A stretch of 36,631 nucleotides of DNA, taken from positions 1-36,631 of the forward strand of contig JAJRYR010000051.1 in assembly GCA_024275655.1 (NCBI GenBank), given 5' to 3'. Below, piece after piece: positions 30,515 to 36,254 of this stretch (the stretch's first letter is position 1; the number at the start of each line of letters is the position of its first letter). The notes under the pieces were generated by a model. That model searched no databases and had not been told where the DNA came from. It saw nothing but the letters and a program-made list of their open reading frames with translations. Position numbers and translations under genes: made by a program. Origin of the DNA: an archaeon. Its GTDB lineage: Archaea > B1Sed10-29 > WALL01 > WAMD01.

Positions 30515-33055
30515 TTAGTCCCCAACAAACTCCACACCATGTTTGGCTAGTATACGATACGTAAATACCTTTATTCCGTCTAGTATTAAGAACCAAATTA
30601 GGGCATATCCCCACACTAGAATGGCCAGAGACCAGCCAATTGGAGTTACTAGGATACCGTACACTGCAAACAGCGTGGCTAGTATTTGTGTGGCCTCCAC
30701 TGTTATGAACATTATTGGAGAGGGCCATGGCCTTGCCCAGAACGGCTTAGAATGTCGTGAGAGGTACATGGTCATATGACCAGCCACAGCCAGCTTTAGG
30801 AAAATCAATGTGGATACCACATTGCTTGACAACTTGAGATATGCCGTGGCTATGTAGTAGAGTATGAACGTGGATATAACTCCAGTTAACCCCAGCACAG
30901 TTGACATTGTCAATATTGAGTGGGTATTCCACTTCTCTGATTTTCTGGATGGACTTGCATTATCGTATGCTATTGTGAGTATGGGTATATCATTTAGCAG
31001 TGCCAGTATCACTATCATTATTGGTGTTATTGGGTAAGTGTTCAGGAACACTATAGCTAGGGTCATGAAGAACATTATTCTCATTGTTTCTGCTATTCTG
31101 TATATCACATAGGTGTTCATCCTCTTGAATATCTTTCTAGCTTCAACTACAGCATCTGAGATAACCCTTATTCCAGGAGCGGTTAGTATTATATCCGCCG
31201 CCATTCTCGCAGCATCTGTGGCTTTATCCACGGCGATACCACAGTCAGCCTTCTTCAGCGCAGGGGCATCGTTCACACCGTCTCCAGTCATAGCGACTAT
31301 ATGTGCCTTTTTCTGTAAGCTGCTGACAATTAGATACTTATGCTCAGGGTAGACTTCAGCAAACCCATCTGCCCTCTCAACTAGTTCTGCAATTTCTTCT
31401 TCGTGTTTCTTTACTATTCCCTTTGGAAGTCGCATCCCTTCAAATTCTTTCACGATTTCGTGTGCCACTTCTTCGGCAAATATTCTTGCTTCTTCCTCGC
31501 TTGCTTTCTTCTTAAGTTTCAGATAAATTTCTCTAGCTAACACTTTGGCTAGTACAATCAATTCCTGCCTGTTTTCTCCAGTCATCTCTTCTGGTGTCAA
31601 TATGTTTTCTCCCAATCCCAGTATTCTAGCAATCTCTTTTGCTATTGCCTTGTTGTCTCCAGTGACCATCTTTACTTGGACGCCCATTGATCTTAGATCG
31701 CTTATAGTCTCCTTTGCATCTTCTCTGGGTGGATCATAGAGTGGGATTAAGCCGACCAGTGTCCACTTTCCCTTGCTTCGTATTGCTACTCCAATTGTTC
31801 TATAACCTCTAGATGCTAGGGAGTAAACATCCTTTTCAACCCTTTCTCTTTCCTTTCCTTTGAGCCCTGCTAGTGCAATTACTACTTGAGGTGCACCCTT
31901 AACAACATCTATAACTTTCTGACCTATCTTTATTTTTGCCTCTGATCTCTTGATTTTTGGATCAAATGGCAAGAAGGATAAGACCTTTATTTTCTTGTAG
32001 ACATCCTTCACCCCGTACTTTTCTGCTGAATTGTATATTGCTAGTTCTAGTGGATCCTTATCTTCAAGCCTAGAAGCAAGTAGCGCATAATGTATCACAT
32101 CTTTCTTAGAGAATTTGTTGTATGTTACTGGTTCAGCAACTACCAATTGGTTCTTCGTTAATGTCCCTGTTTTATCTACACAAAGTATATCCACACTCGC
32201 TAGTTCTTGGATAGCACTCAACTTTTTTATTATGGCTTCTTTTCTGGCTAAGTTCATAGCTCCAATTGCCATTGTTACAGATAAAACAGCAGGCATTGCT
32301 ACGGGTATGGACGCCACTACAAGAACTAGTGCGAATCTCACAAATTCTAGAATTGGTTCTCCTCTGTACAACGCCACGATTAAAATGATAGCTGCAAGCA
32401 CTAAAGTTACAAGAATGAGGTAATCAGTAACTCTTATTATCATCTTGTGCAAATGACCAGTTTCGTGCATTTCGGCCTTTGCTATGAGGGCAGCATTTTT
32501 TCCAAACTTTGTGTTGTAGCCAGTTGCAATGACTACACCAACCATGCTACCTTTTTTTACTACTGTACCTGTGTATGCTAGGTCTCCCCTGTGTTTAGTT
32601 ACAGGTAATGACTCACCAGTTAGTGCGGATTGATCCACTAGCAAGTACTCTCCATCTATCAATTTCAGATCCGCTGGTATCATATCACCTAGTCTTACCT
32701 TCACGATATCCCCAGGGACTAGATCCCTAGCTGGGACAATAATCCACTTCCCATCTCTCAATACTTTTGCTTTAACCTCTAACCTCTTTTTTAGAGCCTT
32801 TATCGCAGAATCTGCTTTTCGTTCTTGCCAGAAATCTACGCCAGCATTTATAAGAAGCATTAAAATGATTATCGCGAAGTCGTCCCATTTGTGGAGTATT
32901 GCCGATAGTACAGCAGCAATTTCTATCATCCATGGAATTGGTCCCCAGAAGTGTTTTGCTAGTTTTTTCCAGGTTGGTTCCTCCTTCTCTTCAATTTCAT
33001 TTGGTCCAAATTTTTCAAGTCTTTTTCTGGCTTCTTTAGAAGACAACCCTGACAT
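30515..33055 (-). CDS. P-type (P3A) plasma-membrane H+-ATPase
   Basis: 846 residues from the first ATG, with all P-type landmarks: TGES (about 146-149), the M4 motif IPVAMPAV (about 250-257), the phosphorylated aspartate D294 in DKTGTLTKN, KGAPQ, VTGDN, and TGDGVNDAPAL. M6 reads ALLNDIPILTIAYDN, as in prokaryotic P3A proton pumps. Between VTGDN and the hinge there is an insert of about 60 charged helical residues (ILAREIYLKL-type to HEEEIAELVERA) relative to the shortest homologues. Similar inserts occur in some archaeal and bacterial P3A pumps, by recollection. The true N-terminus probably lies up to 25 codons upstream (to 33130), where no ATG/GTG/TTG exists. MscS precedes it. Confidence 0.95.
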   Translation of the reverse strand: MSGLSSKEARKRLEKFGPNEIEEKEEPTWKKLAKHFWGPIPWMIEIAAVLSAILHKWDDFAIIILMLLINAGVDFWQERKADSAIKALKKRLEVKAKVLRDGKWIIVPARDLVPGDIVKVRLGDMIPADLKLIDGEYLLVDQSALTGESLPVTKHRGDLAYTGTVVKKGSMVGVVIATGYNTKFGKNAALIAKAEMHETGHLHKMIIRVTDYLILVTLVLAAIILIVALYRGEPILEFVRFALVLVVASIPVAMPAVLSVTMAIGAMNLARKEAIIKKLSAIQELASVDILCVDKTGTLTKNQLVVAEPVTYNKFSKKDVIHYALLASRLEDKDPLELAIYNSAEKYGVKDVYKKIKVLSFLPFDPKIKRSEAKIKIGQKVIDVVKGAPQVVIALAGLKGKERERVEKDVYSLASRGYRTIGVAIRSKGKWTLVGLIPLYDPPREDAKETISDLRSMGVQVKMVTGDNKAIAKEIARILGLGENILTPEEMTGENRQELIVLAKVLAREIYLKLKKKASEEEARIFAEEVAHEIVKEFEGMRLPKGIVKKHEEEIAELVERADGFAEVYPEHKYLIVSSLQKKAHIVAMTGDGVNDAPALKKADCGIAVDKATDAARMAADIILTAPGIRVISDAVVEARKIFKRMNTYVIYRIAETMRIMFFMTLAIVFLNTYPITPIMIVILALLNDIPILTIAYDNASPSRKSEKWNTHSILTMSTVLGLTGVISTFILYYIATAYLKLSSNVVSTLIFLKLAVAGHMTMYLSRHSKPFWARPWPSPIMFITVEATQILATLFAVYGILVTPIGWSLAILVWGYALIWFLILDGIKVFTYRILAKHGVEFVGD

Positions 33056-34243: not shown

Positions 34244-35071
34244 ATGCAGTTGGTCTTTCATCCAGTTTTTCTAGAACATGAAGTGCCGGGCCACCCGGAA
34301 AATCCCGAGAGGTTTTCCATGCTTGATCTAGATTCCCTAGCATATTTGGTCCCGGACTCTGGAGAGAAGTTGCTTGGTTTAGTTCACCCACAAGAGTACG
34401 TGGAGAGGATTAAGGAGTTGTCCTTAGAATCGGGGGTTCACTGGCTGGACCCAGATACATATATTTGCGAGAAAACCTGGGAAGCGAGCGTTCATGCAGT
34501 TGGCGCTGCCGTTCTAGCCAGCGAGAAAGAGGCCTTCGCCTTGGTGAGGCCCCCAGGACATCATGCTACTAGAAATAGAGGTATGGGTTTTTGCATATTT
34601 AACAACATTGCCATCGCCAGCTTGAACCTGGTGGGCAAGGGGAAGAGAGTTGCAATCCTAGATTTAGATGCCCACCATGGAAATGGCACTCAGGACATCG
34701 TTCTAGGGAATCCAGACATAATCTATTTTTCAGTGCACCAAAGCCCAGGTTACCCAGGAACTGGTCTTGAAACCCAGGAAAACTGCTATAATTTTCCTTT
34801 GCCACCAGGATCTGGAGACGCAGAATTCTTCAAGGCTTGGCAGAGCTTTTATCCTATCCTAGAAAGATTTGATCCAGATTACATTGCTCTTTCACTGGGA
34901 TTTGATTCTTATTACAAGGATTATGGTTGGTTGACTTACCTAAGATTTTCCTTGAAACCGTTTAGGACGGTGCTAGAACTGAAAGAGAACTACAAGGTAT
35001 TTGGGGTTCTGGAAGGTGGGTACAACCCAGAGAGCATAAAAGATGGTGTAGAGCTGATTCTTAGTGTTTGA
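34244..35071 (+). CDS. Histone-deacetylase-family protein (class II / AcuC-like amidohydrolase)
   Basis: 275 residues of the arginase/deacetylase fold. The signature includes GHPENPERF near residue 16, the catalytic His pair in RPPGHHATRNRGMGFCIFNN (about 102-121), the zinc ligands in ILDLDAHHGNGTQD (Asp and His), and the third zinc ligand Asp in ALSLGFDSYYKD. LEGGYNPESI holds the conserved GGY. The protein is short for the family and lacks extra lid segments. Substrates could be acetylated proteins (for example chromatin proteins), polyamines or acyl-amines, and the sequence does not decide. The Lys-rich protein at 11800 is a conceivable but unsupported target. It is convergent with the next gene, overlapping it by 11 bases. 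Confidence 0.93.
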   Translation: MQLVFHPVFLEHEVPGHPENPERFSMLDLDSLAYLVPDSGEKLLGLVHPQEYVERIKELSLESGVHWLDPDTYICEKTWEASVHAVGAAVLASEKEAFALVRPPGHHATRNRGMGFCIFNNIAIASLNLVGKGKRVAILDLDAHHGNGTQDIVLGNPDIIYFSVHQSPGYPGTGLETQENCYNFPLPPGSGDAEFFKAWQSFYPILERFDPDYIALSLGFDSYYKDYGWLTYLRFSLKPFRTVLELKENYKVFGVLEGGYNPESIKDGVELILSV

Positions 35072-35860: not shown

Positions 35861-35968
35861 TCCCGCCCCCCGGATTCGAACCGGGGACCAGTCGGTAGCT
35901 GCGGTCGGGAGGCTTAAAGCCTCTGACCCACTACAGCCGACCGCTCTACCAGGCTGAGCTAGGGCGGG
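35861..35968 (-). tRNA. tRNA-Tyr (anticodon GUA) with a 34-nt intron
   Basis: On the minus strand the acceptor CCCGCCC/GGGCGGG (discriminator A), D-stem GCTC/GAGC, anticodon stem GTCGG/CCGAC and T-arm CCCGG-TTCGAAT-CCGGG are all intact. The anticodon loop is CTGTAG followed by an intron (35897-35930) and then A, that is, inserted at the canonical 37/38 site. CTGT pairs with GCAG (one G-T wobble) as the central helix, and the flanking bulges are AGT and CTA. This is a good bulge-helix-bulge splice motif. The mature length is 74 bases. No CCA is encoded. Confidence 0.95.
35897..35930 (-). other. tRNA-Tyr intron
   Basis: The 34-base intron folds on itself through GAGGC/GCCTC and GGTC/GACC. The splice sites lie in the 3-base bulges AG^T and CT^A, separated by the CTGT/GCAG helix, as the archaeal tRNA-splicing endonuclease requires. 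Confidence 0.9.
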
Positions 35969-35982
35969 ATAATTCAAGAGAG

Positions 35983-36065
35983 CCCCGGAGGGATTCGAAA
36001 AGCTGTCACGCCAGCTTGCAGGCGATGTGACTTCAAATCCTCCGGGATGCCACACAAGGTGGCAT
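35983..36065 (-). repeat. Hairpin pair with long imperfect dyad between tRNA-Tyr and tRNA-Thr
   Basis: On the minus strand a 7-bp hairpin (ATGCCAC/GTGGCAT with a 5-base loop, 36047-36065) is followed by a larger structure closed by CCCGGAGG/CCTCCGGG (36039-36046 with 35984-35991). Inside are GTCA/TGAC, CGCC/GGCG and AAGCTG/CAGCTT as alternative inner stems. Both arms carry T-loop-like TTCGAAT or TTCAAAT sequences, in opposite orientations. No consistent tRNA cloverleaf can be drawn, so it is not a normal tRNA. It lies in the transcribed tRNA cluster. Confidence 0.55.
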
Positions 36066-36066
36066 A

Positions 36067-36140
36067 AGCCCCGGGGGGGATTCGAACCCCCGACCTGCCG
36101 CTTACAAGGCGGCCGCTCTGACCAGCTGAGCTACCGAGGC
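36067..36140 (-). tRNA. tRNA-Thr (anticodon UGU)
   Basis: On the minus strand GCCTCGG pairs with CCGGGGC (one G-T wobble) and the discriminator is T, as in archaeal tRNA-Thr. The D-stem is GCTC/GAGC, the anticodon loop is CTTGTAA, and the T-arm carries TTCGAAT. No intron and no encoded CCA. Confidence 0.96.
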
Positions 36141-36161: not shown

Positions 36162-36175
36162 CTAGTTTAAAAAGT
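36162..36175. promoter_or_regulatory. Shared TATA element between tRNA-Thr and the C/D sRNA
   Basis: CTAGTTTAAAAAG has a central TTTAAA palindrome, about 28 bases from the tRNA-Thr 5' end (minus) and about 25-30 bases from the expected start of the C/D RNA (+). On the minus strand it reads CTTTTTAAACTAG with a purine-rich lead (AGCAAA). Confidence 0.5.
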
Positions 36176-36193
36176 TTGCTTTCCATTTTATTT

Positions 36194-36254
36194 GTGCCCA
36201 TGATGAATGTTTTTGATCCTGAATGATGATGAAAGGGTCAGAGTCTGAGGCTAC
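36194..36254 (+). ncRNA. C/D-box guide sRNA (2'-O-methylation guide)
   Basis: In order on the + strand: C box ATGATGA (36200-36206), a 12-base guide, D' box CTGA (36219-36222), a 3-base spacer, C' box ATGATGA (36226-36232), a second 12-base guide, and D box CTGA (36245-36248). Exact consensus boxes with both guides 12 nt long match the archaeal C/D architecture. A short terminal stem GCC/GGC is possible (36196-36198 with 36249-36251). The D' guide ATGTTTTTGATC is complementary to ATCAAAAACAT, a near-universal stretch of 23S rRNA. The D guide is AAGGGTCAGAGT, target not identified. It touches the end of the opposite-strand ATPase gene. Confidence 0.85.

Follow-up and report, generated by a model that had tools for sequence, protein, structure and literature searches.

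The window analysed here is the entire contig C38 (36,631 nt) of a 710-kb draft archaeal genome, which comprises 73 contigs and is 88% complete. A double-guide box C/D sRNA lies on the forward strand at 36200-36248, or at 36194-36254 with its short terminal stem. On one side it is flanked by a tRNA-Thr(TGT) gene, to which it is divergent and whose 5' end faces it. The other neighbor, a cation-ATPase gene (Pfam PF00689), has its 3' end towards the sRNA, and its stop codon, on the reverse strand, falls within the 3' half of the sRNA stem. The features of the locus are as follows.

36067-36140, reverse strand: tRNA-Thr(TGT) gene
36169-36176, forward strand: TATA-like box, in the region TTTAAAAA, approximately 25-33 nt upstream of box C
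36194-36198, forward strand: 5' half of the terminal stem, GTGCC, which pairs with GGC(T)AC (from the sequence and the minimum-energy fold)
36200-36206, forward strand: box C, ATGATGA (consensus RTGATGA)
36207-36218, forward strand: D' guide, ATGTTTTTGATC, 12 nt
36219-36222, forward strand: box D', CTGA
36223-36225, forward strand: D'-C' spacer, ATG, 3 nt
36226-36232, forward strand: box C', ATGATGA
36233-36244, forward strand: D guide, AAGGGTCAGAGT, 12 nt
36245-36248, forward strand: box D, CTGA
36249-36254, forward strand: 3' half of the terminal stem, GGCTAC (from the sequence and the fold)
36251 onward, reverse strand: cation-ATPase gene, stop codon at 36251-36253

An earlier note on this DNA had proposed a C/D-box sRNA with four exact boxes and two 12-nt guides, and each part of that description is borne out. 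The RUGAUGA and CUGA boxes are present in order, both guides are 12 nt, and the total length of approximately 55-61 nt, stem included, falls within the archaeal norm of 50-70 nt, for which guides of about 10-12 nt are typical (PMC4644070, PMC7994747). In the minimum-energy fold, the terminal stem GTGCC/GGC(T)AC contains one bulge and adjoins the C/D k-turn. When the full 36.6 kb was searched on both strands, 36200-36248 was the only match to either a strict or a looser C/D descriptor; the numbers expected by chance per window, estimated from 200 first-order Markov sequences, were 0.0 and 0.035, respectively.

Comparison with Rfam supported the same assignment. The sRNA aligned end to end, on the forward strand, with the Pyrococcus families sR1 (RF01152; 34.9 bits, E = 9e-8, gathering score 45), sR47 (RF01131; 30.2 bits, E = 1e-5, gathering score 40) and sR14 (RF01145; 28.6 bits, E = 2.6e-6, gathering score 38), which share its box order and spacing but not its guides. 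As is to be expected with different guides, all three scores fall below the gathering thresholds; the sRNA belongs to the archaeal C/D class, outside the three named families. It also resembles the published archaeal double-guide C/D sRNAs (Dennis et al., 2015, PMC4644070; PMC7994747) in its boxes, its terminal stem, the 12-nt length of its guides, the short spacer between D' and C', a predicted target within an rRNA hotspot and a genome that encodes fibrillarin, whereas it differs from them in having an imperfect D' guide, guides that are complementary to one another and a guide pair that was not found in the relatives examined. As such, it is a routine further example of a well-known class, directed at a known methylation hotspot.

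The position of the TATA-like box suggests that the sRNA has an independent promoter. Nearly the same upstream spacing is seen for the motif gtttttatc at a second C/D sRNA of the host (C20:51380, described below) and for gtttttaac at the ortholog of that sRNA in G001, a genome of the same family, and similar boxes precede most of the host tRNA genes. Because TTTAAA is palindromic, or nearly so, the promoter is perhaps shared with the divergent tRNA-Thr gene. A scan for sigma-70 promoters and terminators, which is not suited to archaea, returned nothing.

The D guide was assessed against the host's own rRNA genes, for which full-length matches to the archaeal LSU and SSU models were obtained. 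Its target, ACTCTGACCCTC, is 23S positions 2009-2020 in helix 69 (H69), with 11 consecutive Watson-Crick pairs at 2010-2020 and a duplex energy of -20.1 kcal/mol. All ten core positions (2-11) are paired, +5 included, and no other site in the host 16S and 23S rRNAs has a 10/10 core. The site score was matched by none of 400 shuffled guides; in a stricter test, one of 600 shuffled D guides gave an 11-pair run. The earlier note had left this guide without an assigned target, proposing an rRNA or a tRNA site; the rRNA alternative stands, and the tRNA alternative does not, as neither guide has a target within the host tRNAs and the apparent matches sat in the flanks of tRNA loci. By the D+5 rule, and by alignment with E. 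coli K-12 rrlB, the nucleotide predicted to be methylated is 23S U2013 (E. coli U1917). This predicted pairing with helix 69 is the actual anchor of the target assignment, and it yields an exact methylation prediction at an intersubunit bridge in a poorly studied archaeon with a small genome.

Dennis et al. (2015, PMC4644070) report helices 68, 69 and 71 as hotspots of predicted archaeal C/D-guided methylation, the sites predicted in hyperthermophiles being especially dense near A1912, and the sRNA would extend the helix 69 hotspot to the host lineage. In Haloarcula, a comparable C/D-guided 2'-O-methylation in helix 69, Gm1950 (E. coli 1909), is attributed to fibrillarin and an sRNA (PMC2584109); it falls on a different nucleotide from the one predicted here. 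Since the nucleotide equivalent to U1917 is pseudouridine in both E. coli and Haloarcula (PMC2584109), two guide systems could meet on a single nucleotide if the U1917 ribose is methylated in this host.

The D' guide, on which the earlier note had placed its emphasis, is only partly supported by its match to rRNA. That note had described the guide as complementary to a segment that it linked to the universal 16Sar primer site, at approximately 1770-1780 in E. coli numbering. The best rRNA site of the guide is indeed in that segment, at 23S 1890-1901 (TACCAAAAACAC), 119 nt upstream of the H69 target, but the complementarity is inexact: the segment reads ACCAAAAACAC in the host, where GATCAAAAACAT had been expected, and the 23S carries TTTACCAAAAACAC where the guide would need GATCAAAAACAT. 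Eight consecutive pairs form (+4 to +11), together with a pair at +2, while an A opposes a C at +3. This gives a 9/10 core, and it is the only site in the host 16S and 23S with at least nine of the ten core positions paired. The +5 nucleotide is paired and is indeed the A that the earlier note had named; by alignment this base, 23S A1894, is E. coli A1783, slightly past the range that the note gave. Fewer than nine bases of complementarity to 23S had been named there as grounds for rejecting the proposal and, taken formally, eight consecutive pairs with a mismatch at +3 fall below that number. An alternative D' site at 23S 2646 was ruled out, as it depends on G-U pairs.

Our preferred reading, to which we assign a probability of roughly 0.85, is a canonical archaeal C/D sRNA that probably has its own promoter and whose D guide directs 2'-O-methylation of U1917, with a D' guide that is weak, a docking aid or an orphan. 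The sRNA would be transcribed from its promoter divergently to tRNA-Thr(TGT) and would assemble with L7Ae, Nop5 and fibrillarin into an RNP; the D guide would then place a 2'-O-methyl group on U1917 in the universally important loop of H69, where the two subunits meet. The D' guide, pairing with the 16Sar segment 119 nt upstream despite one mismatch, may permit weak methylation of A1783 or help to dock the RNP, or it may have no such role. These steps, from transcription to any D' activity, are predictions drawn from the sequence. Fibrillarin itself is encoded in the host genome (contig C39, positions 70-720; E = 1.3e-84), and its best PDB matches are archaeal fibrillarins (E approximately 1e-72); the gene that follows it gave no Pfam match.

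The fate of the D' guide divides the more credible alternatives. There is close to an even chance that the sRNA is a single-guide RNA with an orphan D' guide, that is, one with no RNA target, with a target that is neither rRNA nor tRNA, or with a sequence that has drifted. Such orphans are frequent (PMC7994747). In a set of 489 sRNAs, a third carried no guide with a significant match to 16S or 23S, and an empty or weak second guide is compatible with membership of the class (PMC4644070). The D' guide has no good match in the host tRNAs, its better-scoring places at tRNA loci lying outside the tRNAs themselves. What counts against an orphan is the proximity of the best D' site to the D target: an equal core within 150 nt of that target was reached by one of 600 shuffled D' guides, a limit that was set afterwards.

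A full double guide, with U1917 and A1783 both methylated, is possible but rather less probable. It is favored by the same proximity, by the paired +5 position and by the uniqueness of the D' site. Published practice requires at least nine consecutive pairs, a length that the D guide exceeds with +5 included, but is less strict with some double guides, those whose two targets are no more than approximately 100 nt apart (PMC4644070). The D' run of eight falls short of the general rule, however, and the 119-nt spacing exceeds that of the relaxed one. The D' duplex is also far weaker than that of the D guide (-7.5 versus -20.1 kcal/mol), and an equal core arose somewhere in the rRNA for 21 of 600 shuffled guides. 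In nine relatives the corresponding part of the 16Sar segment reads ACC, AGC or ACT, and ATC is found in none of them. The short pairing, the spacing and the lack of ATC in relatives leave the 16Sar segment as only a possible target of the D' guide.

The two guides are also complementary to each other, with ten consecutive pairs when G-U is allowed (-11.9 kcal/mol). Pairing as strong was found in 56 of 5000 double shuffles, and guide-guide runs in seven other sRNAs of the class are 2-5 pairs long. The guide-guide helix is part of the minimum-energy fold of the sRNA, and it could compete with target binding; it is stronger than the D'-23S duplex. The D' guide might thus act intramolecularly, mimicking H69 and holding the D guide in an inactive hairpin until L7Ae and Nop5, or heat, open it. 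We consider such a role unlikely: the observation was made post hoc on a single sequence, the pairing is weaker than that between the D guide and H69, and the fold z-score is -1.9. The complementarity may be due to chance, or it may leave the free RNA folded shut before protein binding. Finally, a chance, untranscribed sequence is barely credible, even though no ortholog was found in relatives, in view of the low descriptor expectation, the 11-bp match to an rRNA hotspot, the promoter-like box and the matching stem.

A pattern search identified two further C/D sRNAs in the host genome, at C20:51380 and C20:39469, and a reversed-pattern control gave zero matches in all 19 genomes. Both have near-identical orthologs in G001, and the terminal stems TGGC/GCCA and CCAG/CTGG of sister sRNAs sit in the same place as that of the sRNA at 36194-36254. 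The D guide of the first (C20:51380-51428), and of its G001 ortholog, also fits H69, three nucleotides further on, with a 10/10 core and its +5 nucleotide at 23S C2016 (C1920), a position that TlyA methylates in some bacteria. Its D' guide and +5 nucleotide differ from those of the sRNA at 36200-36248, and it is conserved between two genera, whereas no counterpart of the latter was found in the relatives examined. The D' guide of the second fits 23S G2333 (G2251) with one G-U pair; G2251 carries a methyl group in E. coli and is a predicted site in three archaea (PMC4644070, PMC2584109). The U1917 and C1920 guides cover 23S 2009-2020 and 2012-2023, respectively, and these overlapping footprints mean that the two cannot bind the rRNA together. 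A more elaborate scheme, in which the overlapping guides methylate the riboses of both U1917 and C1920, with 2'-O-methylpseudouridine as the result at U1917, and in which the RNA that guides this step inactivates itself by pairing of its two guides, is a long shot.

Searches with the guide patterns and with strict and relaxed boxes gave no match to the sRNA in any of the 18 further genomes examined from the class and phylum, a result to be read in light of the incompleteness of these drafts. A DNA-similarity search within the genus, which consists of the host genome alone, was likewise negative, and the tRNA-Thr locus of G001 has a TATA-like box and no C/D sRNA. Helix 69 is near-identical in the eight loci of relatives that show it. 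Archaeal C/D guides turn over rapidly (PMC7994747), so the missing orthologs lower confidence in our preferred reading, a U1917 guide RNA, only a little. In two relatives (G008 and G007), the match to 23S is interrupted near H69-H71 by stretches of several hundred bases, and these are probable 23S rRNA introns.

Several other observations were made nearby in the window. A tRNA-Tyr(GTA) gene with an anticodon-loop intron, overlooked by ARAGORN, lies at 35861-35968 on the reverse strand. Its intron contains GGGTCAGAG, nine bases identical to part of the sRNA D guide, and could therefore also pair with helix 69; the identity is probably a coincidence. Directly downstream of tRNA-Thr is a strong hairpin (35981-36055). 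Read on the reverse strand, its 3' arm, TTCGAATCCCTCCGGGGCT, agrees with the 3' end of tRNA-Thr in 18 of 20 aligned positions, much as if an insertion or duplication had long ago taken place at the tRNA 3' end. The segment 35982-36050 was considered as an H/ACA sRNA on account of a downstream ACA and rejected, as none of the rRNA uridines suits its pocket and a comparison with Rfam gave no matching family. Further away are a gene for a histone-deacetylase-family protein (34244-35071, forward strand) and one for a P-type ATPase (30515-33055, reverse strand), the relatives of which, in one scan, were bacterial, mostly proteobacterial, at 50-55% identity. Gene transfer is a possible source of these two genes in a small archaeal genome.
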